Shown here piece after piece: positions 4,920 to 40,440 of a stretch of 64,000 bases of DNA. A model generated the notes under the pieces. It was given only the letters and a program-made list of their open reading frames with translations. It was not told the origin of the DNA and made no database searches. Source of the stretch: Tubiluchus corallicola. Taxonomy: Eukaryota > Priapulida > Priapulimorpha > Priapulimorphida > Tubiluchidae. How positions within the stretch are numbered: the stretch's first letter is position 1; every line of letters begins with the position of its first letter. The stretch covers positions 507,001 to 571,000 of the forward strand of contig JAQGDQ010000043.1 of NCBI GenBank assembly GCA_030141605.1, written 5' to 3'. The position numbers and the translations under genes are program-made.

Positions 4920-6340
4920 TAGACCCAAGTTTGAGCCAGTGATATACCCAAGTTATACTGTTATTGTACATCATATGAAATTTATCTAAAAAAAACTATA
5001 CGCTTCTTGTGGTTCAGATGTAGCATACACATCATTCCAATTAATATTATCCAAGTCAGAAACTAATTTGCGTTTAATACGGTCATCATAGACAGTTCTG
5101 CTATATTTGAAGAAATGAGATGTAGTATATCAATTATCAAGAAAATTGGAAAGTGACCGGTAATGTCAGAAAGTAAATTACTAGATTTAAATTTATGTTC
5201 AATTAGATTGGTAAAAATATTCTCTATCAATGTTGAACTATAAGGCGTTATACGTGTATGTAAGGATAATAAAGGAATTACAGCATTATTAGTGATCACA
5301 GTGTTTAAGAAGTCAGATGTAGCTTCATGGGTTGAGAAGGTTAACAAATTAATATTGAAGTCATCAAGAATGAGAATTTGTTTCTTATGACGAGTTACAG
5401 TAGACAATAAATTACATAACTGCGCAATGAAACGTTTCACGATCTTCACTAGGTGGTCTGTAAACAGAAGACACTATTATATTTGCAGCTTTACTAACAT
5501 GTATTTCAATGAAAATTGTTTCTAACAACTCATTACTTACGCTGAGATTATTTCTTACTGAATAATTAGTAACACTTCCTTTTTTATATTCTCGATCTTT
5601 ACTAGCAAAACTGTAACCTGGCAAGTTCGGAAATCAGGAGAATTACAAAGAAGGCATGTCTCAGATAAAGCTAGACTGAGAAGTAAATTAACTTTTAACA
5701 AATGTAATGGTGCCGTGAAATAATCATAGTTTTCTGCCAAACTACGTATATTTGAATGAATCATCGATAAACAATTATTATAAAGTATAATAAATTATTA
5801 TAAAGAGAATTGTTTAATGTCAAAATATTTACTTTTTGGTAACTGGTTAGGATTATTAAGGAATTGTAAGTCAGGATCAATTTCGTCTAACCTATTAAAA
5901 TAATCTCCAAACTGATGTTCAAAAATATCCAGATTACATTCAGAATCTTGCAGAACAGAGTAATTTATTGAAGGACTGACAGCAAATTCAAATTCATTAT
6001 CGCCTATAATATTATTATAAGGAAATAAGTTTTGCAAGAAGACGTGGCAAAACCAGACATCTCCAGTAGCCAGTAGTTTTTCTTTTAATGAAAAATAAGT
6101 ACATTTTAGATGAATGATTCAGCTGCACCAGTCGCAATTCAACGCCTGCTGGTTATGTCGAATACATTTATCGCATAATGGACAAAAACTATTTACAGGT
6201 ACCATCAGGAGTGTAGGGAAAATCAAAGTTAAAGAGATAAGAGAATAAAAAATAAATAAAAAATAGAATAAAATATCGCTAAAGGAGTGTAAGTTTAAAA
6301 TATAGAAAAAATATGCTAGCAAGTATAGTAAACTCTTTCA
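4920..6340 (-). mobile_element. LINE (CR1/L2-like) 5' half: PHD finger plus endonuclease, degraded
   Basis: Read downward on minus: CPLCDKCIRHNQQALNCDWC at about 6180-6121 followed after a stop by IHLKC and GDVWFCHVF, a PHD-type zinc finger; then MIHSNIRSLAENYDYF (5764) and LSETCLL, an APE-type endonuclease start; IIVSSVYRPPSEDRE, ILILDDFNINLL, THEATSDFLNTVITNNAVIP, LLSDITGHFPIFLI and SDLDNINWNDVY down to about 4990. The catalytic GDFN reads DDFN, and stops and frameshifts break it. No RT domain follows. Confidence 0.8.
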
Positions 6341-6654: not shown

Positions 6655-6742
6655 ATGTGTAATTTTTTAGTGTTACTGCTAGTGTTAACAGTTCCACTAA
6701 ATATATTTATAAATGCACTGAGTACAACTCCATCAAGTACAG
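6655..6742 (+). CDS. Receptor exon 1: signal peptide
   Basis: ATG at 6655 opens a short hydrophobic leader, [20 protein letters not shown], followed by a Ser/Thr-rich stretch. It ends at a strong donor (ACAG|GTAAGT, phase 1). This small exon is too short for ORF finders. It was chosen because its phase matches exon 2 and a leader is needed upstream of the SRCR/EGF modules. Confidence 0.75.
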
Positions 6743-6934
6743 GTAAGTACTTTCCTTTTATAATTTTTACAAATACAAAATAAATTATAATGTTTTATTT
6801 TTTGTTTTTAACTTTTATTTAGTACATGTTTTAAAAGTGATGTAATTATTACAATTTAGATATTTTTAATCATGCAATTTAAAATTATGATGTATAAAGT
6901 TCTAATAATATTAATAATGCTGATGATGATGATG

Positions 6935-7019
<85 letters not shown>

Positions 7020-10000
7020 TAACAATAACAATAACAATAACAATAACAATAACAATAACAATAATAATAATAATAATAATAATAATAATTAATTTAAAAT
7101 ATAGTAAAAAAATTTTGAGGCAAATAGCTATTTTACACCGTCTCTATATGCATATTGGAAATGAACTCTTTAAAATTGTGATAGCTTTTATTTGTCATTG
7201 TGTTTAGATCCTTCTTTTTATTGTTTGATATCATAAACTAATTCTATTTCATATTCTCTATAAGCTGTCAGGTACCACAAAAAGAACATTTTATGAATAC
7301 AGTTAAAGTATGCGCTTGCATAATAAATACTCCACTGTCTAAAAACTTCCTGTTCATCTTTTCTCATATGGGAAATTTTATTCCTTTATTATATATTATA
7401 TACCTTTCCGTTTTATATAATGGGCAGCACTACTAGCGACTACAACTGAACCTAACTCGTACCGGGTGGTGCAGAAAAATATGTCGAAGTTTATTTGCAC
7501 TTGCCTATAGTAGAATAACTTTAGAAGCAAGTGCTCTACAAAGTTGTAATTTCACAGCTTGATATTAGCTGCGAAATTACACCATCCATTAGCAATTGAC
7601 TGTGAAAGTTACACGCTTTAGTGGTTTTTAAGTTATGATCAAAAAGCTTTTACCCTGCTAAAAGATTAAATGCCGGAACAGTGCCAGCTAACCATCAACT
7701 GAGAAACAGCCACGTTCAGTGATGTAAAGCATTCAATATATGAAGCAAAACAAATCAACCAGTTTACATCATGGTTATCACTAAAGAAAATAAAACATTG
7801 ATAAAGATTTGTTACCAAGAATAAACAAGACTTAATACTCTGAATTACAATGTCTGTAATTAGCTTAAAGAGAAAGTGTGTAACGGCCCTACAGAGCCCT
7901 TTGATGCAATGCGACTAAAGGCAAAAGTTGTTGAGAGTTGGGAGCAATTACTCCTTGAAAAGTGGAAAACTGTGTCACCTGTTGGAGGAAAAGCCTCCGA
8001 CTACTTTGCAGTGAAAATGGTGGACATGCAGAGCACCTGCTGCACATTTTAACGATAGTGACACACAAAGTTTTTCTGGCATTCATTTTTGACTTGCTGT
8101 TTCAAAACTTCTGTATCTTTGGAAAAGTCTAAGTATGGAAAAGTCTGTATCTTTGGAATGATTTAAAACTTACGGTGTTTATACACTATCGTGTATAACA
8201 TCAGTGCGGCGACTTTAATTTTGATTCTGTTATTTTCTTCTTAGAGCATCATGATCAAAACTTAGGCACATTTTTTCCGCCACCTAATATACATTGTCAT
8301 AATTTTTTTCTATTTTTATTCTATTTACCACCATGTCATCTGATAGGGTTTTCACTGAGGCAGTTTGTGGCACAAACATTCTGTGAGATAATTCGGCTGA
8401 TATGCGGGTGATGTACTAACATTCAGGCAACTCTCAAAAGTCACACAGTTCCTTTCGAAAAGTAACAGGCAGGAAACAGTTTCTTTTAAAAAAAGCTGTG
8501 AAATGTATTCATGTGAAGAAAATAAACAAAAAATTACAACGGTCACCAACGTTTGCAAACTCAGCGTATGGCCTGGTGACTAACATTTCACTTTACGTAT
8601 TAAAGCTTTCCAATTTCTATGAACCAATTCGGTTAATAAAGAAAATTAGAACTAAGGTGGTGTAAACTATTCTTATGGACGAATTTCACTCTAAAAAGAG
8701 AACTAATTCTGGAAGACGTTTCACCTTAGTAGAATTTCGGAACCTAATCTAGTGATGGCATAGGACAGTACGATTCGATGACGATTAATCATAAAATATG
8801 AAAATGTGTGTGTTTTAGATGACTTGGCTGCTCCAAGCGGGTGGAAACTTGCTTAAACATATCACTTATTATCACTTATTTAATTTTAGTGCCACCGAGA
8901 CGGTTCGTCGCGGGTGATCGGGTCTTTGGTCGGAAAAGTGACGGTTTATACTACCGAGGAACAGTGACCAACGTCCGCCCATCTGGCGTCAGCGTCAGTT
9001 TCGAAACTGGTGAAAGTGCAGATTTTGACATCAATAGTAATAATGTAGTTGCTGATAAATTAAATAATCCACGATGTATTTTGGTAAATAGTCGAGTGAT
9101 TGCTCCTTGGCCTAGTAGAAGCATGTATTACCCGGGTAGGATTCAGTCGTTAGATCCAGTTATAGGACCACTGAGAGTGTACGTTTTTTATGACGATGGT
9201 GACGAAGGTTGGGCAAGTCAAGCGCAACTGCGACTTTTGCCAAATCAACCACCAGATGCCACATGTTATTACGATCCCTTTGATGGTACGTAATCCACTT
9301 GAAGACGATGTTGTTTTCTCGTAATGTTTGTATTGTATGTAAAATTTGATGATACAGAACCACTGAATGTCCAAATCCAATCTCACATTATCCGCTTTGT
9401 CACAGTAAAACAACAGCATTAGAAACCAGCTTAATTACGTTGTGTTTGTGTGTAATAGTGCTTTGTAGTGTTTTTAGTTTTTCGACTAGTGTGCCCTAGT
9501 TTGACTTAATTTGAATAACTTGTTCTAATTTTGTTTTGGCTATATTCTTGCCTATGTAGATGCACCTCGAGTGTGCGTGCTGCATCCTGTGATTTTTATT
9601 TCACTTCGAAACAGATCAAGGTACTTGGATTAGGCGATCTTTACCCAGCCAGCTTTTTGTCACATTGAGAGCCCAGATCTAGAAGAAACAAATGACATTT
9701 TTTAAATTATCAATCCAGAACGTTAATCGATCATAAAAAATGCGAGTTTTGTAATGTAGAAACGAATGCACGTTTTTGCAAGGACCAAGGCTTTTCATTA
9801 GGGAACAAAAATCGAGTTGAATATTATTTATAACAATACAATTTATCCGCTATCATTAATCGATCATTCATCGTTGAAAAATGCCTTTGATTATGCAAAG
9901 AAACTAATCTCCTCTGTAAAACAAACGTATTACAGACAAACAGACAGACAAGTTTTTAGCTGTGATACAATCGCTTAAAGAATTTTAATAAAGTATAATC

Positions 10001-13000
10001 ATCGCTGATAAAAATCAGTCTGAATTGAAACTGGCTATGAAAAAGAAACACCTGCCACAAACAAAGGCTATTGGCAATGAACTACAAATTTGGAGAGATT
10101 TTAAAACGTTATCCGCTCTCCTTGCTAAGTGGAGCCACATACTAATCAGGCAGAAGATTGGCATTCTGCTTGAATTTCCGTCTTTCAGTCCTATGATATT
10201 TAGAAGTGATTCTTGTATATTTTGTAGTGTATTTTAACGTAGAAGATAGTGCAAATAAAATAAAAATGAAATGATCAATGTCATGCAGTAATTCAAATTG
10301 TAAGCTAGGGTTTGGATGAGACACCACCATTTTATAAGCTCTAAAAAGCTGTGAAGTAAAAAAATCAATTAATCACGGCCGGTTGTAGATTTTTATATTT
10401 CATCTGCAATTTGACAAAAAAATAAAGTTAACGTAGTGTGCATCTGGTTACTTTTGTTAATGTTTCATTTAAACTATAACGAAATGGGTTTCCAAGTCGT
10501 AGCTAATGTATTTTAATGTGTTCAGAGCAAAGCTTTCTTTCAAGTGCGCATTTTGTTTTAGCAAATGCCACTCTAGTCGCAACAACTCCACCGCCAGATT
10601 TATTGAGATTGGTCGGCACAGAGCACGACAACACAGGGTATCCGCAAATTTACCATGATGGAGTTTGGGGTTTCATTTGTGATGACGACTGGGGACTAGA
10701 GGACGCAAATGTTGTCTGTACGCAGCTAGGATTTGGGTTTGTTTTTACTAAGTTTATGTTATGAAGTGAGATTTTTGCGTGCAGTAGGGTATAGATGATC
10801 ATGAATGGAGTACAAGTGATACAAACTAAGCTAGCTATGCAATAGTACAATAGTAAGACGTGTTATTGGATGCGTGTATACGTGTATGTTAATTTTTTAT
10901 TTCCGCTTACCCCTTTGCACCAAAAGCAGTCGTGTGTGCAGAAATCTCTCTCTTCTGGTAGCATACAAGCAGTTGCATTCTTCTGTCCCTATCAGCTTAA
11001 CATACAACAAAAAATTTGACAAATGAAATGGGTGAATACCAATTATTTTTTACATAAATACATTCTAAACAGTTTCAAAAGCTATTATTTTCATAATGGT
11101 CTACGATTGTTAATAGGAAAAAGGTAAAGTGAGCAACTGTTTTAAGAAAAGGCTAGTGTGCCATCACGTGCATAAACCATTTCACTTCGAATAGTCACTT
11201 TGTTCTTTCCATAGTAATACAGTAATACACTATCAAACCAGTAACTGAACACTTGGGAATGACGAGTAATACAGCCAGACTTGTAATGGATTTTACGTTG
11301 CTTTAGCAGAGATAAACCTTAAGAGACTTTTAGCTAATCTGCAAATTCTTAAATTTAAGCTAACTTCTAAGGGTAAGCAATCAGCTAACAAAACGATGAT
11401 GTTCCAATTAATTTTTACAGGAAGGTGAACGCCAGAACATTCTTACGTACTAATGTAGAGGATGTGTACTAATTTATGGGTCAACCAGAGCAAATTTGTT
11501 TTTTATAATTTTTAAATATTCGCGTATAACAGCTCATGCTGCAGTCTGCTGGCGCAACTAAACGAATTATGACCCATTACTCATTAGCAAGAGATCAGAT
11601 GAAGACAAATCACCTATGTGTCCAAATGTCCTATGTGTCGAAATAAAAAACCTTTGTCAATAATATTTGTATCGAAATAGACTGACTAAAAGCCTGTTCC
11701 CAAAACCCCTGTAATCAAGGAAACAGTTTCCTGCTATACTGTATGTAAAACGCGAGTAGACAACCTGGCTGATTTAGTACAACATCAGTTATATTTAGTA
11801 ATTGTGACAACTACAGTAGTAGTAAATAAGAAACCGTACCGATAAATACTATGCACATTAGTTGATGAGTTGAAACGGCAATATCGACTTCTTTGCTTTT
11901 TCGATGTATATTGTCTGATAAAATGTTTACCATCAATTACAAGTATTAAAGCTGTCTTATCAGTTTAAACTGTTCAAATTCAAGTGAAACAATTAAAAAA
12001 TCCTTAAAAAATTATTTCGTACATTTTTTTCATAAAATGGGCTGCCACTTGCCAGAGCCTCCTACTTAGTAAAGACAAAGAGGCCTACTGTTAGGCTGTA
12101 ATTTTTAGTAGTTTTGTTTTGTTTCATTATAGAGGCGCTAACAGAGCGCATGGCAGCTTGTACTTCGGCACACCTTCTGAAAGAGACGTCTCAGACAAGA
12201 TTTGGCTAGATGACGTGTCATGTAATGGAGATGAAAGATTAATCAGTGATTGTGTACACAGTGGATGGGGCACTCACAACTGCTTAGTGTCTGAGTTAGC
12301 GGCCGTGGAATGTTATAAAATGAGTAAGCTGAAATGCTTTAAATTACACAGTAATTGATTGTTAATACCACTGTTCAGTCTACATTTATAATATATCACT
12401 TGGAAATCCTAGCTTTAAGATAAATAAAGTAGCTACAACAGCCACTGAAAACACGTTCTGTATTACTAGAACTCGAATGGAAATACATTAAGCGTTTTGG
12501 CTTTGTTTTTATACCATCCTCAGTAAAAATAATCCAATTGCATCATTAAATTTTAAATGTTTTCTGCTGAAAATGGCATGAAGGCAATGTGCCGAAACAT
12601 CCAGTTCACTTTTCGTGGAGCGCAGTATGCAATAAAAGGATTTCAATGGTTGCCTTAGCTATTTTATTTCCCTGCATGACTTACTTCGACGATGCAATAA
12701 AATAAACCACTCGCAGACAAGTCGCAGGTAAACGATTACATAGGTGAATGCCAATTTCTGCAACACGTAATCAGATCAACATGATGCTAGCTCTCCGGAG
12801 TGCTGTTCAAAAACTAGTTAGTGCACGTTTTAATTTTTTCTAATTCAGCATCGCTTTTAGATCTTTGACTGACTGACCGTTTGACCAATAAGCTTAAAAT
12901 ATTTTTAGTTCAAATTAGCCGCAATAGTTCTGGCTACTACCAATATAAAATTTTCCAAAGGAAACAATTACCTTTTAAAGATATCATAATAATAATAGCA

Positions 13001-16000
13001 ATAATAATAATAATAATAATATATCATATTACTCCGTATTAACGTATGTCTCATGTTATGCATTCGTATTAATTTTGTCGTCCATTATAACACATATTTA
13101 AATGCAGATACTGCTGTTTGGCTCTATTGGGCAAACTTACATTGGTCCCATTGTTAAGCCAACAATTATACACTTATGTTGTGCCGAAAATTCCATCTTC
13201 ATCAGTGGCATAATTATTAGTGGGCAACATTGCAAACTTTTATTATTTTGGCCCTATATTTTATACTTGGCTTTCTTACTTTGCGAAAAGGAAAGGATAT
13301 TACGAGAAAGTGGAGTATGAATGATTTACTAACTGAATAACTGACTGACTGACTACTGATTGACTGACCGACGAACAGACCGACTGACTGACTACAAAAA
13401 TCTCACAAATAACAAATAACGTTTGATAACATTTTTAGGAGGTTTTGATTTAATACAGAAGCTTACGCTTATGTATCTTTAACTATTTCCTCAATAAGTA
13501 TATCAATTTACAGAGTCACTAAATTAGAATAGTTAACTATGGAAAAGATTTAAAAGCTAGTGGATAATTGGCCGTGTATCTTCTTTGTTATTTGCAAAGC
13601 AATTTATTTATATTTCGTAACAGAAAACCGTTTGCTTGTATGAATTATAAAGTTATTGATTTCCCTTGAACTGAAGGGTTGATAATAGAATCTTGCTCTA
13701 CGGAACTTGAGTCTTAATCGATTTTGAAGTTACAGTTATTGGTAAAAAGATTTTCGCCTACACGAACAATCCGCTAGCCCTCAGCAAATTTTAAGAACAT
13801 GTTCAAACATAAAGCAACATGTCAATTAACTGGCGTGTGTCACTTGGTTTGAGGGTATACAAATATCTTTTCAGACAAAGCGCTCATTTCGTCCTTGTTT
13901 TTTATTGTACAACGCCAACATGCTCCCTGTTTTATGCACATGTGTTGTGTGTTGTTCGGTATGGTCTTTATCTTGCATGCGTGCTTATTAAGTATACAGA
14001 GAAATTTAATTTTAACTTTATTAGTATTTTGTAAGGGTTCAAAGCATATAAAAATTATTAGGAGCTAAAACTATCAGAAACTTTGCATGAACGTTAGAAC
14101 CTGTCACGAAATCATCATCTTGTCAGAAAAATGAATACTGTCTGAATAATTACCGCTTTAATTAAGACAACGTAATATTATTCAATTCCAATTTCAATTT
14201 CAGTTTCATTTTAGACACAAAAGAGCCCATAAAGTTAGTAACATACTGTAAACTATAAAAGAAAAATACCAGAATTATAATTTATTCATTTTTCATTTTT
14301 CATTTTCAGATTATGATGAATGTGCTCACGGAGAAGACGACTGTGATGAAAACGCCATTTGTACTGATTTAGCAAAAGGTTGGAACTGCACTTGTAAAAC
14401 AGGATACGCTGGAAACGGTAGAGAATGCCAAGGTAAGGTTCGTTTTGTTTTAAAAACAAAAGTCCAGAAATTTTCTATTAGCCGCTAAAAAATTTTTCTT
14501 CTTGTCGCTGTAATAATGGCAATAAGTCTTTTCCTTCTTGTTATCACTGATGCTGTTATGCCTAATTGTGGTGGTAGCCGTTATAGGGTTGTTAGCTCTT
14601 GTCAGACATAACAGATCACCACGCCCCTTGCAAAACACAGAACCCAGCAACTCTGCGTGACGAAAAGTAATTCTTAAGGAGAAATGTGCTAGAAAATAAG
14701 AATTTTAAATTCAGGACAAAAGCTAACTGGGAAGCTTACAGAAAACAAAGGAACTCTTACACAAAGTTAAAACGAGAATCCACTAGAAAGTATTTCGAAG
14801 ACAAATGCAGTGGAGGACCAAATTCTAAGAGTTTCTGGCCCAAAGTAGAACCATTCTTATCAAAGAAAGATAAACCTGATTCCCAGACACCTACTACACC
14901 GAGAAAATACGACTTTGTAACTGATAATCAGCAAATCAGTAATATATTTCTCGAGCTGTTCAGCCTGTGGCAAGAAGAATCTGCCAGTCGTACTATCATC
15001 GATGAGAACATTTTAGCAATAAGAGAAGCTACTGGAATGGCTGAGTGTATTGTTTAGATTTTGCTTATGTAATAGAAAATCAAGTGCTTGACAAATTAAG
15101 AAAAATCAATCCAAAAAATCTGCAGGTTGGGATAATTTCCCTGGATAGCTATTAAAACTTGCTTCCCATTCTCTGGCTTGCCTCATTACCAAACCAATAA
15201 ATAATCGTATTGAGCTTAACGTTTTCCCACATGAGTGGAAACAAGCTAATATAATGCCAGTACTTAGACGCAAGAACAGTGAAATCGATAAAACCAACTA
15301 CAGGCTTGTCAGTATTCTTCCAATGCTGTCCCAGAATCAGCTAAGTTCTTATATTGAGCCACTCCTCTCTGTCGAGCTTTCTGGCTTCCGCCAGTTGCTG
15401 AAGCTCATAGAAGACTGGAAGCTCTTTCTGGATTGCAAGAACTATGTAGGCGCCATCATAGGCAAGAACTATGTAGGATCTGAACAAAGCTTTCGACACC
15501 CTGTCTCGTTCTGTTATGATCCAAAAGCTCAAATTATATGGTCTCACACAAAAGTCAGACTAATACAGGCAGGCGTGCCATAGGTTCCATACTTGGACCT
15601 CTTCTTTTTAACATCTTCCTTAATGATATGTTACATAAATTGAAAAATACTGCTCGTTATAATTATGCCGATGACAATAGTATTAGCTAGACACATAAAA
15701 ACATAAATAAACTAATAACAGATCTGGAATGTCAGAGTGAGAAAACAATAAAATGGTTTCAAGATAATGATATGAAAGCCATTCCAAATAAATTTCAGGG
15801 CATATTAATTTCACCTGACCAACTAACTCGCAACATTGTCTTGGATTTTTCTTTTGTAAAGAATGTAGTTTCTACTGTCTGTGTGCAATTTTGGCTTGGC
15901 AAGTTTTAAATTAAGCAGTAACTTGTTATAATATAGTCGATAATGAGCCGTAACAGCTCAAGTTATACATGGTAAAGGATTGACTTTAAATAAATTTTGC

Positions 16001-19000
16001 CTTGTCTTATGTTACTGTTGTGGTTGTAGTTCGTCGTTTGATGTTTGATGTTTACGTTTATTTTTAAAATGCTGTTTTCGCTTACGTTTCGTCGCTTTCG
16101 TAGTTCCCGCCAAAGTCAGACTTGTCCATGGAGGTGGCTTCAAGGACCGAGGATACCCGCAGCTTTGGCACGACGGTGAATGGGGCTTCATTTGTGATGA
16201 TTCCTGGGATATTGCTGATGGTCACGTGATTTGTCGTCAAGTCGGCTTCGGGTCTGTAGTTTTGCTTACTGGACATTTATAACTGACAAGTTTTAATTTA
16301 AATTTAAAAATTTCACTGGTGCGCCTCACACTATTATGGACTAGTCCCAGATTTCATTGAAATAGTGCTAACTGGTGAAATCAACGAAAAATGTTTCGAA
16401 TTGTGTCGCTTTTCATGACGATGATGATGAACGATGATGACCATGATGATGATCATGGTGATGATGATGATGAAGGTGATAATGAAGATGAGAACAACGA
16501 CGACGACGATCATGTTAAAATGGGTGTTTTCTAAGTGCGAACAACATTCATTGTTTTTTTGTATTTTTAGAGCTGCTGCAGAAGCTCACTCAGCTTCACA
16601 TTATGGAAGACCGTTTGAATATCCTGTAGTAAAGCATTGGCTAGACGACGTTGAGTGTCGAGGAAATGAATTTGCAATTGAACAGTGTAGTCATAGTGGC
16701 TGGGGGCAGCACAATTGTGATAGTAGTGAGATAGCAAGCGTCAAATGTTACCATCCTTGTGAGTTGTAGATTAAGATAAACAGTTTCGTAGGTAATAAAC
16801 TACTGGAATCTAATTTCAGATAGTTACTTATTGGCATTCGTGGCATTTATTAGCTGTGACAAAATAGTGCAAGCAACATCTGATATAATTTTTGATGCAG
16901 TCTTATTTGTAGTTGAAGCTTTTATTTCATTTGAATTAAGAGATGCCATTAGAATAAGTATAAAAGTTTACCTGTATTAGAGAATGAAGGGAGGCTCAAG
17001 GTCGCTCAATTTTCAAAGTTGTTAACAACTATTATTCTTTACCATATATTTTTCAGAAGTTCGCGAGCGCAGTACAACACAACTTTTCTGACACTATTAC
17101 TGAAGATTAGTTTCTTCTTTTAATTATTACAACATATATTGTATTCTTTGAAAAAAAAATGAAGGAAAACAAAATACGCTGTCGTCTATTTTAAGGTTAG
17201 ATAAAAACTTTAATTGATTTCTAGCTTATGACGAGTGTGCTCATAACGAAGATGACTGTACAGAAAATGCTGACTGCACAGATTTGGAAATCGGTTGGAG
17301 ATGTACCTGTAAATCTGCATTTGTAGGCGACGGTGTTTATTGCACAGGTAATTAACTGCAGGTTGTGCCATACCGGTACTGGACCAAATTTATGTATTTG
17401 TGTGCGTAGTTATATAGGACGTGCTTTTCGATCTACAAGTGTGTAACCTGTGCCAATCAAATTACACAGCACCTGTGCATGATCAAGAGAGACCTTCGTT
17501 CATCTTTCATTTTTAACCAATTCAACATTTATAAGCGCTAATCCATGCTAGAGCGATTAGAATAATTTTTGCAATTAACGTAAAACCTAAAATAATCATA
17601 TTAATTATTTATTTATATAAAGTAATTATGAATAAAAAATGTCAGAATTATTAAATTCTCAAACCAAAGTCACCTGAAAGGAGGAGGGTGGAAAACTAAA
17701 AAATTAACTCAGACTAGGCCCATGTTTACCCCGACTTATCACACTCTTTCTTTTGGATTGAATTTAATTTCAAAATTAAATGATTGTAGGTTTATTAGTT
17801 TTAATACTAATAAGGTTTACTGTTCAACTTTCAGTGTTGCACAAACGTTATGCTTCTGACACGAGCTACTTTTATCGGTATTTTGTATTCTAGTGGAAGC
17901 CTCTTTAACAATTTTAGACTAGATATTTTTCCTGTGTATTTTGATAGTAACATTACACTAGATATTACTGATTATTCAAAAGACTGTTTACCTGAAAATG
18001 CTTACAGCTTATAACGTCTACTTACAATGGTGATAAAACCTTTTTAATTTCAGAGAAACCGGGTGTTAGACTTGTTTGTGGTGGCAAGAATTACGGTTAC
18101 ATCCAAATTAAATATTCAGGCGAATGGCGATACATTTGTGAAACAAATTGGGAACCGAAAAGTGCTAATGTAACTTGTCAACAGCTAGGTTATACGTACG
18201 TCGCTTTAAAATAGTTAACAAAATCATAATGTTGCTATAAACATTACTTCTAAACATTTGAGCTAAAAGTCTGAATCAGGTGGCTATTGTACGCACAGAG
18301 ATGGAGTAACACTGATAATTTTCCACTGTTGGAGAGAATTTGGGCATGTAGTAAACTTAAACTGTAGTTCAGATCATGTGTATGCCATTTTTAAAATATA
18401 AACGCGTTTCTATAGTCAAGCGTATAGAAAAGCATTTATTAATAAAGGAAAAAGTTTTGGAATATCTTAGAGTGTCGGTACTATTATAGCAAGTTAAAAA
18501 CAAACAGGTTGGCAATGTTCTCAAAAATCACTCGCACGCTGTATCAAAATTTTAAATTTCTCGAGTTTATCGTAAATGTTGTTTAATTGAATGACTTATT
18601 TTCAGAGGCGCAGCGTACACCGTCCCTGGATTATTTTATGGGTTTCCCGGAGAAGAACTGCCCACATATTGGATTGGAGATGTACGATGTCGAGGAAATG
18701 AAACGAGTTTGTACACTTGTCCCCACTCAAGCTGGGGTCTCGTACAAGATGAATGCTCACCACTAAAAACAGTAGGGACTGCTTGTTACAATGCAGGTGC
18801 AGTAATAAATTTACTTTGGTTAAATTTGACAATTTTTCTCAACTTAATTGCTACAATTATGTTTTATGTTAAGTTTTTCCGACACTTTCCTCCTCATTGA
18901 GAATATATTTATTTCTCCATTTTATTTAGGAATTAGAGGTTCCAATTTATTTTTACAAATAAATGAAACTCATTGCAATTTTCGTAACGTGGCTCTTTCA

Positions 19001-22000
19001 ATTTTTATGCAATGATGATCTTTTATCTTATTAAATTAAAATAGGATAGTTTTTCATATCCTGCCCCATTTCAAAATACGATAAAAAGTATACATTTTAA
19101 CACCCATAATAATGCCAAAGTTTAAAATTTAAATTTCAAGTTTACTAGTGTGTTCACACATAAGATCTCGAACGTGTGGATCACATCACATCTGAACTAC
19201 ATCTGAGCTGACAAGCACAACATCTGTGCCCATCTAACTAGCGTCACAGCATTTAACAGCAGAGAACTAGCCACGCGAACACCAAATTAGGTTTCTACGT
19301 TTATAATTCTTAATTCATTCCGTAAAAAAACAGTGTATTCACTTTCAATATTTTATAGAGCAGATTGCTTTAAGCCAAAGTTTAAGACTGGGCCCGGTTT
19401 TCTATTAACCATTAATACGCCTTCTTAAACGTGGGTATGTGGGCCCGTGCTGGTCGGTTTATTTGCGGCAATTAACTGCAAAAATTTCGACGTCACATTT
19501 GTCTTAGGAGATAACGAATGTGAAACTGGCAACAATGACTGCCATGACAACGCCATCTGTAAAGATTTGAAGAAAGGTTGGACATGTGAGTGCAAGCAAG
19601 GTTACATAGGCAATGGTCGCTACTGTGCAGGTAAAGTTTAAATGTAATAATTTTCGTACTCAGGTGCCAAACTGACATGTACTTATTTTCATTTTTTAAG
19701 CTTTGGACTGAACTGAATTAAATTATACGTCACAGTATACCCAGGTATAAAACGAAAAATACTAAGTAATTATAAAGTTAAATAAAAAATTTTCCCCACT
19801 AAAGTTAGACAGAACATAATAATAAACAACATATTGTCACTTGCAAGTTAAGCCAAGTGTATTATCCTTAGCTAAGCATTATTCCTCCAGAAATAACTTT
19901 TAATAGGTTAGGGACAATTTAAATGCAGCTTACTGTTTGCCGCATTCGTCTTTCTGGCCTAGTGTGACGTAATAAACCACGTGACTGTCATAGACGGAGC
20001 GGCGATTGTCATTTTCTGCCATCAGTCAGTTTTGCTACAGTCATAACAGAACTTGTGTATTGATTTCCTGTTACGGGATTGAGTTGTCATTTAGCTCACA
20101 TTAAATTTTAAGCAGAGTGATAACAACTTAAACATTTTATTGGCAAAGTCTAAATGATCATGTTTGTCACAAGGCTTTTCTGATAAAACGTGACACATTC
20201 ATTTGATCCAGGGGACCCAGCTTTAATTAAACCTTACAGCAGGTGTCATCTTTTAAAATGTTTACATCGGCTTCATTAACAGTGACACTCAGACGGTGCT
20301 CTTTTTCTCAGTATGTTGTTAATAAATGCAGAAAGCTGCACAAGTTTTACTTTTTTAGTTTTTCACTTAAAAAAATCCTTTCAATTAGATAAATAAACGC
20401 CTCTCTATGTTAAAAACTCTGGAAATTCTGGCAAGCCTCTTCGTCAAAATCGTCAACACGGCTACTATAATTAGAAGCATGAACCATGCAAACAGGTAAA
20501 ACAGACAAAATTCCGATTTTCAGGTCCAAAAAGAATATTCTGATTTTCAGTGATTTGCCCAAGCGTATTGTTATAATGTGCAAACAGAGTTAAATTTTTA
20601 TTTTTCATATTTTTCTGTAAGGAGTAAGCGTCTACATTTTTTTCTACATCTGATTTTGATTTGCTGGGTTTTGTGCATTATTTTTGCTGTTGTTTTTCAG
20701 GTTACTTTTTTCCAGCTTGGGTAACCAATTTAGTGTGAACAGTTTTTTGTTTGCAGAGGGTCCCGGTGTACGTCTGTTAGGTGAAGAAGGATATGGTTAT
20801 CTGCAGGTTCAGTACCAAGGAAAATGGACTTACGTAGCAAGTTACGGCTGGAGTAAAGGCGCGAGCAATGTCGTTTGCAGGCAGCTTGGTTACAGGTGAA
20901 AAAAATGTTAAATCGTGAAAAGCTAAGGATTTTCCAGTGTATTCTGGCAGTGATAGTAACAATCGTAACCGTAATCACAACAATGCCAATGACAACAGCA
21001 AAAGCGCAGCAGCAACAACCACAACAACAACAACAACAACAACAACAGAAACCACCATGACCACGACCACGCCGTCAACAACATTCAAATTATTTGTTTT
21101 TTCATTCGTTTTCAGCGGCGCTATTGATGAATCAGATGTTTCAAATTTGGATAGACCGGTACCTTGTTTGATTAAAAACATTAATTGCGTGGGAAATGAA
21201 ACCGATCTTTTCTCGTGTTTCTTCGAAGTGAATTCAGATGACTTCCTTTGCAGTCCAACGTCTGTAGTTACTATTTTCTGCTACTCGGGGTCGCTGCCTG
21301 CTGATATGGGTAAGACATGAATAGGCAGCAGTAACTTCTAATAATTCTTCCTAACGGATAAAATAATAATTATACGTTTTATTATAAAAACAGAAAAAGT
21401 AGCGTTTTGTGTTTAAGACCTGCTGCAAAAATACTAAATAAAAGTGAGAAATTTTGTAGTGAAAATATAATTATATAATTATTTTGCCAAAAAATGTCAT
21501 GATGTATAGTTATGTCTATGATAGTGTTCACTTGTAGGAGCAAACTGTCGGCCTTGCTGTTTAAATCTGTTAGTAACTAATTATTGGCTAGTAATCAAAT
21601 AAATAATAAGATTTTGTTTTTGGGCATATGAATCCCGTTCAGTAGATGAGAAAAGCTGAACTTGAAAGAGAGCAAGAATAAAAACAATCAACTGTTTTAA
21701 TTAGTTTGAATGCTTTTGCGACTTTCACTCTTAATTATGCCATGTAAACAAATAAATAATCACTCTTTCCGTAGTAAAATACAGTATATTTTTATGGTTA
21801 TATCAATAATTCGACATTACATCTTTTTCAAGAATATGTAGCCAAAAGTATAATATAATATGCACAACCTTAGATGAAAACAATATACATATTAATCAAT
21901 CAATGTGCCATCGCCTTAAATACGTTATCAATGAATTTTTTTTGTAATTTTAATGATCTTTTATTTGTAAGATGCATTTGATCGTCATGTAAAATGGATT

Positions 22001-23638
22001 AAAATTTGAAATGTCAGAAGGATGTTCCTATTCTGTCTGTCAGCTGTGTTTTTGTATTTTCTAGTTAATTTAATAGTGATACGAGCTTTTATTTATAAGT
22101 TCTGTAATTAATATCAGGCTGTGATCATTACAGAAATTTTGTACATTGGCAAAGTTGGCGACTCAATCCAACAAAGCCCTCCTGGTGTTCTTTAAATCTG
22201 TCAGCTTAAGTTCTGCTTGTTTTGCCATAATGTCTTTTTCGTCACAAAAAGATTCTAACCCATAAATCACATTACAAATCTTACATGTCCCTGGTTTGTT
22301 AGAAATACAGATTTCATATTGCGGCTGTTTGTCCCAAGTTGGAGCAGCTGTATCCGATCTAACTAGCTGACAGCTTACGGCTCCTGAGGTATTGTCAACC
22401 CTAAATACAGTTTTAATATCCAGATTACGTTTTTTTAAAGAATACTGTTAATCCTGCATGAGATTTATCAGAAACAGAAGGGTCTTGCAGTATTTGATGG
22501 GGTTTAGCCACATCAGTCTTCTTTCTTCCGACATTATTGGAATTACCAATTTTTTTACTTAATACGTAATGTCGTTTTCTAATAATCTTTTCTGGATATT
22601 TCAACAGCTTGTTAATACGAAATTATTATTATTATTATTAATTAATTAATTAATTAATTAATAGAACCTTTAATATTTTAGGTTCATCTGGACTTAGCAA
22701 TAATTTGTCGTCTTTAAATTCGTTAAGTAAGTATGATTTTTTTATGATAATGATGATAAGAGTTAGAAGAAGCAACTGACGAAACATTTTTTGTCGCTTT
22801 GTGCACCAGTAAATGGCGAAATAGATACTTTAAAATACCAGAAAAGTTAAAGCCTTCGATATTTTCTTAGATTTACACTACGTACTAGGCCTACAAATGA
22901 ATATGAAACAGAAGAAAACTAATGGAAATTGCGTTGTGCATATAATATAATTATTATGATTATTATGGCCAAAATTATTAGCAATTACCCAGAGGTTTCC
23001 CGTAAAATCTACTTTAATTTCAGCGAAGGCAGCCTTGGTGTTTTCAATATTGGTGACATTAATTGCTATAGTTGTTGCAGCAGTAGCAGTATTTTTTTAC
23101 TTAAAACGGTATGTATTACAAGTTTATAACACGCCTTAATTCAACATAATTTTACTTTACTTACATCTGTGACTCCAATACTATATCACTTCGTATGCTG
23201 TAACATCTGACGCTTAATGAATTATCACATAATAGTTGTGCTAGTGCTCTTAACGAGCGTCTTACTCATGCAAATCAAACTAACCAATATTAGCCTTTAA
23301 ATGTTTTTATATAATTGTAGTTCGTGTAGTTGCTCAGCGTCGGCATTAACGGTGTAGTTATAGCCCATTGTCACCACAGTTCTCATTTTGAGTGACATTA
23401 CCTGTACGTCTTTGCCACAATATCATCGTTTTGTCGTCGTCGTTCTCCTCCTCCTCATCGTCATCATCATTGTCATAGTCACCAAGACACCATCATCATA
23501 GCTGGCAGTGGAATCTAGTGTCGAGGTGACAGTGATTTCAGCGTTTCTCTAACTATGCACATGTATTGTATTTTTAGCCGATCCCCTACACAGCAATCAG
23601 TGGAGTTTAATAAACTACGTGAACATGAAGAAGCTTAA
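6655..23638 (+). CDS. Single-pass membrane receptor: Tudor-like module, (SRCR-EGF)x3, SRCR, TM (16 coding exons)
   Basis: Joined exons: 6655-6742, 8890-9285, 10562-10736, 12133-12323, 14310-14432, 16104-16251, 16571-16758, 17225-17347, 18054-18195, 18606-18796, 19508-19630, 20757-20895, 21116-21309, 22682-22726, 23024-23108, 23578-23638. All introns are GT-AG and every junction keeps frame, giving 2412 nt including the stop (803 residues). Approximate residues: signal peptide 1-22; Tudor-like module 30-160; SRCR1 176-281; EGF1 284-324; SRCR2 327-434; EGF2 437-477; SRCR3 480-586; EGF3 589-629; SRCR4 632-735; stalk 741-755; TM 757-782; tail 783-803. Each SRCR is split by a phase 2 intron and most carry six cysteines, the group A pattern. 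Group A SRCR proteins are usually scavenger, pattern-recognition or matrix-binding surface proteins; ligand and role here are unknown. Sequons include NAT in exon 3, NVT and NET in SRCR3 and NET in SRCR4, fitting an ectodomain. The short tail shows no ITAM, kinase or death domain, so signalling would need a partner. No family name can be assigned. Confidence 0.88.
6922..7091 (+). repeat. AAT/AAC microsatellite in receptor intron 1
   Basis: A long AAT trinucleotide array with an inner block of AATAAC hexamers (about 7012-7062). The apparent poly-Ile frame is an artefact. Confidence 0.95.
8890..9285 (+). CDS. Receptor exon 2: double Tudor-like (DUF4537-like) module
   Basis: 396 nt, phase 1-1. 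Two related lobes are visible: [15 protein letters not shown] with [14 protein letters not shown], then [16 protein letters not shown] with [13 protein letters not shown]. The pattern GxxVxA/G...YYxGxV...VxFxDG is that of Tudor-like/DUF4537 barrels, with candidate aromatic-cage residues (YY, F, W). Only two cysteines occur (in PRCILV and DATCYY); they could pair in an oxidising compartment. Known relatives are mostly intracellular, so placing this behind a signal peptide is odd. The coding call is strong; the fold assignment rests on pattern recognition only. Confidence 0.8.
10562..10736 (+). CDS. Receptor exon 3: SRCR1, first half
   Basis: Phase 1 in, phase 2 out. A linker with a NAT sequon and a TTPPP run leads into [11 protein letters not shown], then [16 protein letters not shown] and VVCTQLGFG, the hallmark N-terminal half of an SRCR domain with the first two conserved cysteines. 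Confidence 0.9.
12133..12323 (+). CDS. Receptor exon 4: SRCR1, second half
   Basis: Phase 2 in, phase 1 out. It contains [26 protein letters not shown] and AAVEC, supplying the last four of six cysteines. The split at GFG|GA is the usual group A SRCR intron site. Confidence 0.92.
12985..13022 (+). repeat. AAT microsatellite, intron 4
   Basis: Short imperfect ATA/AAT array. Confidence 0.85.
13341..13395 (+). repeat. CTGA tetranucleotide repeat, intron 4
   Basis: Imperfect CTGA/CCGA repeats. Confidence 0.75.
14310..14432 (+). CDS. Receptor exon 5: EGF1 (calcium-binding type)
   Basis: 123 nt, phase 1-1. [28 protein letters not shown] and GYAGNGREC give six cysteines. The DE before the first cysteine and C-x-D-x4-aromatic-x-C-x-C resemble calcium-binding EGF domains with an Asp/Asn hydroxylation motif, but the aromatic is Trp. 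Confidence 0.93.
14640..15870 (+). mobile_element. LINE (CR1/L2-like) reverse transcriptase fragment in intron 5
   Basis: Broken reading frames give a LINE ORF2 middle section in order: [16 protein letters not shown] and KYFEDKC near 14730-14815, [15 protein letters not shown], then [15 protein letters not shown] and [11 protein letters not shown] (RT domains 0-2) at about 15230-15340, NKAFDTLS near 15485, and [16 protein letters not shown] with YADD (the catalytic palm box) at 15580-15675. Several stops and frameshifts show it is dead. It has the same orientation as the host gene. Confidence 0.85.
16104..16251 (+). CDS. Receptor exon 6: SRCR2, first half
   Basis: Phase 1 in, phase 2 out. 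[29 protein letters not shown] and VICRQVGFG form a canonical SRCR N-terminal half with two cysteines. Confidence 0.92.
16417..16512 (+). repeat. GAT/GAC microsatellite, intron 6
   Basis: Imperfect GAT triplets grading into GAC triplets, ending about 60 bp before the exon 7 acceptor. Confidence 0.9.
16571..16758 (+). CDS. Receptor exon 7: SRCR2, second half
   Basis: Phase 2 in, phase 1 out. [26 protein letters not shown] and ASVKC complete a six-cysteine group A SRCR domain. The upstream GAT-repeat reading is intronic; the exon starts at the TTTTTAG acceptor. Confidence 0.93.
17225..17347 (+). CDS. Receptor exon 8: EGF2
   Basis: 123 nt, phase 1-1, the same length as EGF1 and EGF3. [24 protein letters not shown] and GDGVYC are closest to EGF1 by eye, supporting cassette duplication. 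Confidence 0.93.
18054..18195 (+). CDS. Receptor exon 9: SRCR3, first half
   Basis: Phase 1 in, phase 2 out. [26 protein letters not shown] and [10 protein letters not shown]. There is an extra cysteine (LVC) before the usual first one, and an NVT sequon. Confidence 0.9.
18606..18796 (+). CDS. Receptor exon 10: SRCR3, second half
   Basis: Phase 2 in, phase 1 out. [27 protein letters not shown] and TAC. SRCR3 totals seven cysteines, so one may be free or bonded outside the domain. Confidence 0.9.
19508..19630 (+). CDS. Receptor exon 11: EGF3
   Basis: 123 nt, phase 1-1. [29 protein letters not shown] and GNGRYC give six cysteines, again with Trp in the hydroxylation-type motif. Confidence 0.93.
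20757..20895 (+). CDS. Receptor exon 12: SRCR4, first half (first cysteine lost)
   Basis: Phase 1 in, phase 2 out. [28 protein letters not shown] and VVCRQLGYR. Where other copies read FIC or YIC this one reads YVA, so the first conserved cysteine is missing. Confidence 0.9.
20990..21084 (+). repeat. CAA/CCA microsatellite, intron 12
   Basis: AAC triplets flanked by ACC-rich triplets, within a short intron that splits SRCR4. Spurious Thr/Gln-rich frames arise here. Confidence 0.9.
21116..21309 (+). CDS. Receptor exon 13: SRCR4, second half (divergent)
   Basis: Phase 2 in, phase 1 out. [29 protein letters not shown] and IFC. One extra cysteine (VPC) replaces the one lost in exon 12, so pairing may be rearranged. 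The usual WLDDV and SGWG motifs are absent; this is the most diverged repeat, next to the membrane. Confidence 0.87.
22163..22625 (-). pseudogene. Unrecognised broken reading frame, intron 13, antisense to receptor
   Basis: Reading the minus strand from about 22625 down, coding-like sequence runs [43 protein letters not shown], then a one-base frameshift inside an A7 run near 22432-22438, then [33 protein letters not shown] and [15 protein letters not shown] before a TGA at 22163-22165. Its 5' end abuts an ATT/ATTA microsatellite. No family recognised. Likely a mobile-element or retrogene remnant; a live gene with a sequencing slip cannot be excluded. Confidence 0.45.
22621..22662 (+). repeat. 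ATT then ATTA microsatellite, intron 13
   Basis: ATT triplets followed by ATTA tetramers just upstream of exon 14 and adjoining the unrecognised minus-strand remnant. Confidence 0.9.
22682..22726 (+). CDS. Receptor exon 14: juxtamembrane stalk
   Basis: 45 nt, phase 1-1, between a TTTTAG acceptor and an A|GTAAGTA donor. It encodes [15 protein letters not shown], a Ser/Asn-rich flexible stalk. It is small, so confidence rests on phase and good splice sites. Confidence 0.7.
23024..23108 (+). CDS. Receptor exon 15: transmembrane helix
   Basis: Phase 1 in, phase 2 out. It encodes a run of about 25 hydrophobic residues ([16 protein letters not shown] then AAVAVFFYL) followed by KR, a type I stop-transfer pattern. 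The acceptor is TTTAATTTCAG and the donor CG|GTATGT. Confidence 0.85.
23578..23638 (+). CDS. Receptor exon 16: cytoplasmic tail and stop
   Basis: Acceptor TATTTTTAG, phase 2. It encodes [11 protein letters not shown] and NKLREHEEA then TAA at 23636-23638. The tail is about 20 residues, basic next to the membrane and acidic at the end, without recognised signalling motifs. Confidence 0.8.
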
Positions 23639-26102: not shown

Positions 26103-38825
<12,723 letters not shown>

Positions 38826-40137
38826 CTGAAATATAAAACAAAACAACCATTAAATGTTATAGAATGAACATCAACCAAACAACAAAACAATTCTAAATAA
38901 TTTTTAGAATTAAATCGCAAATAAACCAGCCTGAAATAAATATTAAAAGCAAATTGTGAAAATGTATTATTGTAAAACACAAGTAACACCGTTATACACA
39001 TAATTGCTGATGCTCTAAACTATTTGTTATTCTTAGATATTGTGTACTGCATATACGTTTTATTTTTGTCATCTTAATTTTGTTTACAACGTATAGTACA
39101 AGTTTGTGCAAATATTCATATTTTGCAATTGAAATACATAAATTTTGTTTGGAAAAAATATTCGTAAAATTAACTTGAAAATAAGAGAAAAAATGAAAAG
39201 ATGATTTGCATAATAAGAGATAAGATGAAATGGCGTGACTAACTTGAAAGTAAAATTTCATAGCTGTTTATAATTATACAAAGTGTAAAAAGTTGAAGTT
39301 CAAATAATTGCTTATGGAGCAAAAAATAAAATAATAAAATTTAATAGGCCAACGTACAGCAAAGAAAATGGAAATGATTTGGTAGTTGATACTCCGCATT
39401 TTAATGAAACCGTCCAAATTTTATAAGCATTAATAAGGTAATTAAGAAAAACTTCAGTAAAGAGCCTAGTAGGCCCGTTCTAGTGTTCGTTCACGTCAGC
39501 AAAAAGCGAAAGTTTCAAACTTGAAACGGGTGTATAGTATAACATTATTCATGGTAATTCGAAACGACTATGACATACTCAAAATTTAATAATAGCCTCA
39601 AACTCGTAAAACGACAAGCTAACACAAACATGGAAACATACCATAGTGTTATTAGAGTTAATTTACTGCAATTCACTGTTATTATCTGTGGAAAGCTGTG
39701 CTTCGGGGTGGGATTTCCCACTTTGCCATGGGCCAGGTTAAACACAAGCTGTTAGTGAATCGCAGAAAATGGCCGATAAACCTAAACGCCATGATATTCG
39801 GCCGTCTTAAAATTCATGCTTTGTGGTAAAACTGCCGTAGGAGGTGGTTGTGAAGTGTGCTGCTCGGAAACTCACTTCTACAAATAAGAGAACTGTAGAG
39901 CCACGGGGTAGGATGAGGCAAATTCTCTACGTGAAGCAAAGGCGCTAAGTGAAAGTATTTCAGGAAACAGAACCCTCAAAGACCGGTCTAAACTCGAACT
40001 TAAGCGTACGTCTACAGTGAAACTATGGTCTTCCAAGTGTTTTTTATTGAAATGCTTGTTTGCTGAAATGCTAGGCAGTAAAATCAAATCTCGATGTTTC
40101 GATTGGTTAACACGGACATGACAATCTGCCTCATAAA
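38826..40137. other. Region upstream of the first seen AP-2 exon
   Basis: Should belong to the AP-2 gene (intron and perhaps first exon). A weak first-exon candidate on minus is at 39261-39244 (MKFYFQ then GTTAGT, phase 0). Nothing else supported. Confidence 0.35.
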
Positions 40138-40440
40138 ACAAAGAATGGCTGGATTGTCCAAAACGAATGAATGGATTATCCAAATGGAATGATTGAATTG
40201 TCCAAAGTAATGACTAGATTGTCCAAAAAGAACGGGTGGAGTGTCCAAAAGGAATGGCTAGGAATGTCCAAAAATAATGACTGGATTGTCTAAAAAGAAT
40301 GGCTGGATTGTCCAAAAATAACGACTGGTTTATACAAAAAGAATGACTTGGATTGTCCACAAAGAATGGCTAGGATAGTCCGAAAGCAATAACTGGATTG
40401 TCCAAAAAGAATGGCTGGATGTCCAAAAACAATGTTTGTA
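40138..40440 (+). repeat. ~21-bp minisatellite
   Basis: About 14 diverged copies of AAGAATGGCTGGATTGTCCA(A). Confidence 0.9.

Follow-up and report, generated by a model that had tools for sequence, protein, structure and literature searches.

A gene at positions 6655 to 23638 (+ strand) of a 64,000-nucleotide stretch of the genome of the priapulid Tubiluchus corallicola (GenBank assembly GCA_030141605.1, contig JAQGDQ010000043.1, positions 507,001 to 571,000; the whole stretch is here referred to as "the window") is best read as encoding a domain-shuffled receptor with scavenger receptor cysteine-rich (SRCR) and EGF domains, headed by a two-lobed Tudor-like module. Tudor domains are regarded as intracellular readers of methylation. 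The second lobe of this module aligns, with identity at all five positions, to the methyl-lysine cage of the Arabidopsis protein RDM15, and we tentatively put forward that the gene encodes a surface receptor whose outermost part, lobe 2, recognizes methyl-lysine or a related methyl-ammonium group. If an RDM15-type cage does lie outside a scavenger-type receptor, whether animals sense environmental protein methylation becomes testable. The gene is also a clear example of exon shuffling that placed a chromatin-type module in a predicted ectodomain.

Gene structure and receptor body

The exon chain comprises 16 exons that join into a single open frame of 803 codons plus a stop codon, with 2,412 exonic and 14,572 intronic bases. 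Splice sites were picked by eye from the sequence; all 15 introns have GT...AG ends, with weak donors at exon 3 (GTTTGT) and exon 6 (GTCTGT), and the junctions are backed by a second protein, P0001, which is collinear with the whole predicted product. P0001 (801 amino acids, encoded on a contig of 3,379 nucleotides) was the only protein returned, from 167 candidates, for residues 28-165 and is identical to the window protein at 734 of 803 residues; the two align in register over their full length, initiator methionine and tail included, with two gap positions at 739-740. The features of the gene, in window positions, are as follows.

6655 to 6742, + strand: exon 1, which carries the start codon, the signal peptide (residues 4-19 hydrophobic) and a Thr/Ser-rich stretch; the P0001 N terminus matches
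8890 to 9285, + strand: exon 2, which holds the entire Tudor-like module (residues 30-162), with lobe 1 at roughly 35-87 and lobe 2 at roughly 88-151
9108 to 9203, + strand: span of the codons for the putative methyl-ammonium cage of lobe 2 (W103, Y110, Y130, D132, D134), from alignment to PDB 7de9
10562 to 10736, + strand: exon 3, 5' half of SRCR 1 (Pfam)
12133 to 12323, + strand: exon 4, 3' half of SRCR 1 (Pfam)
14310 to 14432, + strand: exon 5, EGF 1 (Pfam)
16104 to 16251, + strand: exon 6, 5' half of SRCR 2 (Pfam)
16571 to 16758, + strand: exon 7, 3' half of SRCR 2 (Pfam)
17225 to 17347, + strand: exon 8, EGF 2 (Pfam)
18054 to 18195, + strand: exon 9, 5' half of SRCR 3 (Pfam)
18606 to 18796, + strand: exon 10, 3' half of SRCR 3 (Pfam)
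19508 to 19630, + strand: exon 11, EGF 3 (Pfam)
20757 to 20895, + strand: exon 12, 5' half of SRCR 4 (Pfam)
21116 to 21309, + strand: exon 13, 3' half of SRCR 4 (Pfam)
22682 to 22726, + strand: exon 14, juxtamembrane linker; 14 of 15 residues are the same in P0001
23024 to 23108, + strand: exon 15, transmembrane helix, hydropathy peak 3.08
23578 to 23638, + strand: exon 16, stop codon and a cytoplasmic tail of 20 residues, all 20 of which are the same in P0001
23918 to 23923, + strand: AATAAA, a possible polyadenylation signal about 280 nucleotides 3' of the stop

The predicted protein runs from the signal peptide through the Tudor-like module and SRCR-EGF-SRCR-EGF-SRCR-EGF-SRCR to one transmembrane helix and a short tail. 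This is the 16-exon chain that an initial annotation of this DNA had described (signal peptide, two-lobed Tudor/DUF4537-like module, alternating SRCR and EGF domains, single transmembrane helix), and the order is repeated end to end in P0001. The Tudor-like module occupies one 396-nucleotide exon, each SRCR domain an exon pair, and each EGF domain one exon. All inter-module boundaries, from the signal exon through the transmembrane exon, are in phase 1, and the splits within SRCR domains and the junction between transmembrane helix and tail are in phase 2. Symmetric phases with one module per exon, or per exon pair, are the usual signature of shuffled modules. The stop-free run that holds exon 2 (8823-9290) ranks second by length among the 8,680 runs in the window.

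A Pfam search of the full window protein returned four SRCR domains, three EGF_3 domains, and one DUF4537 domain (27.8 bits; cut-off, 27). The four SRCR stretches give 271.7 bits for the protein against a cut-off of 26.1, which places it in the SRCR superfamily. In a hydropathy scan of the full protein, values exceed 1.5 at residues 1-25 and 751-786 only. By the -3,-1 rule, the signal peptide is probably cleaved after A21. Because the chain has a signal peptide, SRCR and EGF neighbors, and one C-terminal transmembrane helix, the Tudor-like head is predicted to lie outside the cell.

SRCR 1 and SRCR 2 have six cysteines each, SRCR 3 has seven, and SRCR 4 has a shifted set of six; group A SRCR domains carry a six-cysteine pattern. 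The motif CDDDW of SRCR 1 and CDDSW of SRCR 2 have the counterparts CETNW in SRCR 3 and VASYGW in SRCR 4. The acidic pair present in SRCR 1 and 2 belongs to the metal-dependent site through which SRCR domains bind ligand, so ligand binding may fall to the distal half of the array and a structural role to the proximal half. Separately, YVASYGW in SRCR 4 (20757-21309) lacks the cysteine that SRCR 1 to 3 carry at this place, and residue 693 of SRCR 4 is a cysteine; both peculiarities occur in the window protein and in P0001. The 20-residue tail has no Pfam domain match.

The exon 2 module and its putative cage residues

Searched alone, exon 2 passed the Pfam cut-offs of two families only, DUF4537 (32.7 bits; cut-off, 27) and BAHCC1-like_Tudor (29.2 bits; cut-off, 28), and fell short for Tudor_5 (30.3 bits; cut-off, 31). 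Ten families matched at an expectation value (E) of ≤1, nine of which are DUF4537 or are named Tudor or SH3, and none of six control sequences (the module in reverse and in five shuffled orders) matched a Tudor family in Pfam. An NCBIfam search of the module gave no match, and Rfam gave nothing at the gathering score.

Among sequences of solved structures in the PDB, the SETDB1 Tudors span both lobes in one alignment (E of 1.6e-5 for the whole sequence and 4.4e-4 for the best single stretch). Lobe 2 alone matched RDM15 (7de9) best, with an E of 0.0019, followed by SETDB1 (0.005), BAHCC1 (0.01) and, weakly, 53BP1 (0.58). For lobe 1, the matches after the best one, which is considered below, were MTF2 (0.064) and the PHF19 and PHF1 Tudors (0.66 to 2.1). 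Together, the profiles and the matches show that the sequence of both lobes is Tudor-like.

The cage that recognizes H3K4me1 in RDM15 is formed by Trp616, Tyr623 and Tyr641 together with Asp643 and Asp645 (structure 7DE9; PMC8184781). We placed these residue numbers by spacing on the HMMER alignment of lobe 2 to 7de9, in which they correspond to W103, Y110, Y130, D132 and D134 of lobe 2, identical at five of five positions. P0001 is identical at four of the five and has glutamate in place of D134. The initial annotation did not note this RDM15-type methyl-lysine cage.

Between the window protein and P0001, lobe 2 is identical at 60 of 64 residues (94%), lobe 1 at 45 of 53 (85%), and the region from SRCR 1 to EGF 3 at 423 of 452 (94%); flanking the module, identity is 8 of 13 before and 20 of 26 after. 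The difference in conservation between lobe 2 and the module flanks has a p value of 0.003, and lobe 1 is slightly less conserved than the SRCR 1 to EGF 3 region (p of 0.04). The module has two cysteines only, C92 and C155, both of which are kept in P0001 and could form a disulfide.

From these observations, we propose that exon shuffling built a single-pass type I surface receptor. In it, a tandem-Tudor-like module, carried on one symmetric phase 1-1 exon, follows the signal peptide of what is otherwise an SRCR/EGF receptor and is predicted to form its outermost head. Lobe 2 would use its cage to hold methyl-lysine, or some other methyl-ammonium group, on a target outside the cell; methylated proteins of microbial surfaces and released histones are examples, and the SRCR domains would contribute further contacts. 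Candidate ligands other than microbial proteins include released histones and choline-bearing glycans. With no Pfam domain in the tail, signaling would depend on a partner; alternatively, the receptor might serve adhesion or uptake. Lysine-methylated surface proteins of bacteria include Rickettsia OmpB, Salmonella flagellin and Acinetobacter AtaA; more than 130 methylated lysines are reported for AtaA in a paper that cites methylated OmpB and flagellin (PMC11784438). A bolder reading, to which we give a lower probability, makes the window gene the first cell-surface receptor to use a histone-reader-type cage for sensing methylated proteins, or methyl-ammonium groups of other kinds, outside the cell, as on the surface proteins of bacteria or on chromatin that has been released.

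Weighing the alternatives

Exon 2 might be part of another transcript or an artifact of the gene model, and at 396 nucleotides in phase 1-1 it could be skipped with the frame preserved. We consider this very improbable, given that P0001 unites the counterparts of exon 1, of the exon 2 module and of the downstream exons in a single protein. Because the window gene has so many intronic bases, the P0001 contig, which holds the whole frame and is known by its length and not its sequence, must be spliced, unless the species of P0001 is nearly intronless. As that contig is too short for introns of such size, the mature transcript very probably includes exon 2. The initial annotation had named two outcomes that would overturn its reading, exon 2 in a different transcript and a structure prediction without a Tudor-like fold. 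On the first, a transcript-sized contig encoding P0001 favors a transcript shared with the receptor; on the second, the models described below were not usable.

Alternatively, the module could be a small beta-barrel of a different kind, such as an SH3-like extracellular domain, whose likeness to Tudor domains is due to chance. The best PDB match of lobe 1, 6d0t (BB1; E of 0.017, with no single stretch passing), is not a Tudor, and several results weigh against our reading of the module. AlphaFold2, run with two-sequence alignments, yielded models that were unusable (mean predicted local distance difference test score, 39.7 over the module and 54.7 over lobe 2), and Foldseek with the low-scoring lobe 2 model returned 232 matches at an E of ≤10 and none at ≤0.001, a list that amounts to noise; neither yielded a Tudor fold. 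The P0001 module is below the Pfam cut-off for each of the seven families that it matches (for example, DUF4537 at 25.5 bits against 27 and Tudor_5 at 26.8 against 31), and the full P0001 protein scores 20.5 bits for DUF4537, also under the cut-off of 27. The precomputed Pfam list for P0001 is without any Tudor family, and Pfam surveys could overlook such modules. Because structure prediction gave no usable model, the Tudor fold is deduced from profile scores and from sequence similarity to PDB entries. Nonetheless, chance likeness is improbable given the consistent family names among the exon 2 profile matches, two of them above cut-off, the clean controls, and the graded series of PDB matches to SETDB1, BAHCC1, RDM15, MTF2 and PHF19.

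Equally likely as methyl-ammonium binding by lobe 2 is structural reuse, in which the extracellular Tudor barrels serve as a spacer or a surface for protein-protein contact, and the cage is kept for folding, or because divergence has been short, without binding a methyl-ammonium group. W, Y and YDDG positions are also seen in Tudor folds with no role in reading methylation. In lobe 1 the cage tryptophan is absent, with K45 at the position of the MTF2 and PHF19 Trp. The corresponding cage residue of PHF1 is Trp41 (PMC8184781), to which K45 is probably equivalent, and because of K45 lobe 1 is predicted to have no cage of the MTF2/PHF19/PHF1 type. The second pocket of RDM15, which accommodates H3R2 through Glu647 with Gln654 (PMC8184781), is not retained in lobe 2; Glu647 aligns with G136, and RDM15's own ligand is, for this reason, not implied for lobe 2. 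The register of the cage comes from a single alignment (the 7de9 match at an E of 0.0019). Lobe 2 does not differ significantly from lobe 1 in conservation (p of 0.14), and all of the conservation comparisons concern one pair of closely related sequences, with p values uncorrected for several tests. Beyond the window's own protein, the domain order is seen in one protein, P0001, a close relative. When residues 20-330 of P0001 were used as the query, 39 proteins were returned from 2,034 candidates, and the module was present in P0001 alone and absent from the other 38, in searches that require shared 5-residue words and similar length and may miss distant relatives. Two points favor binding by lobe 2: it has the complete five-residue cage of a reader of solved structure, with four residues unchanged and one D-to-E replacement in P0001, and it has changed less than the module flanks.

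Origin of the module and known systems

Within its own genome assembly (343.5 Mb in 2,344 contigs), exon 2 occurs once, at the window locus. A search restricted to the module (a two-row alignment), which admitted only proteins of similar length, recovered none of 26 candidates. At least 19 SRCR matches (E of ≤0.001) lie on six contigs, six of them within the window gene. Six stretches of 9.9 kb over 12 of the 13 others show SRCR similarity and no Tudor, EGF, signal or transmembrane match at an E of ≤0.01, although the genes may extend beyond these stretches. By way of comparison, 296 SRCR genes are reported for the sponge Amphimedon queenslandica (PMC10855680).

DUF4537 matches occur at five places in the genome: the window gene, one locus each on C379 (L003) and C1545 (L004) that are over the cut-off, and two weak matches on C2030. 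L003 and L004 have identical scores (27.9 bits) and perhaps represent two haplotypes of one gene retained in the assembly. A recent origin of exon 2 as a copy of the genome's DUF4537 gene is unsupported; two L003 pieces picked by eye (25 and 61 residues) resemble exon 2 at the level of chance. Prokaryotic or viral origin was likewise rejected, in that none of 163 and 91 pattern matches proved to be a relative by tblastn.

Elsewhere in the window, three segments (14671-15900, + strand, in intron 5; 5063-6337, - strand; and 1562-1977, + strand) resemble by eye the reverse transcriptase and endonuclease of long interspersed nuclear elements, and none of five tested pieces matched a Pfam retroelement family (one gave a weak unrelated match). 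The longest stop-free run in the window (38304-38849, - strand) encodes 182 Pro- and His-rich residues with no Pfam match at an E of ≤0.1. Repeats at 6927-7092, 26489-26886 and 40127-40429 comprise an intron 1 array of AAT/AAC and two tandem-spaced repeat families.

SRCR and EGF domains are likewise mixed in proteins of sponges and cnidarians, such as P0032 of Geodia barretti and P0021 (partial) of Paramuricea clavata; unlike the window protein, both are among the 38 proteins without the Tudor-like module. EGF-type domains are among the commonest SRCR partners in a 29-species survey (PMC10855680), and the partners listed for SRCR genes are EGF, CUB, LDL-A, collagen, kinase, Sushi and protease domains (PMC10855680; PMC6208332). 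The word "tudor" is absent from the main texts of both papers, and "duf" from the main text of PMC10855680. Literature searches of open-license papers found no description of a Tudor-SRCR protein or of an extracellular Tudor domain, and as far as those searches reach, the statement of the initial annotation that it knew of no described receptor with this domain order holds.

Exon 2 shares its profile with DUF4537 (PF15057) proteins, at the score given above, and differs from L003 and L004, which match profile positions 25-90 in one frame, the preceding piece of L003 (picked by eye) being on a separate exon. SETDB1 is nuclear. It methylates H3K9 and has three Tudors (PMC5727127), and whereas both lobes of the window protein align to this triple Tudor in one stretch, they are two, not three, and are carried on a secreted-type chain. 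The MTF2, PHF19 and PHF1 Tudors have a weak likeness to lobe 1 (E of 0.06 to 2.1), in which a lysine stands in place of their cage tryptophan. The RDM15 Tudor shares its five methyl-lysine cage residues with lobe 2; unlike lobe 2, it is a single Tudor of a chromatin protein, and its H3R2 pocket has E647 where lobe 2 has glycine.

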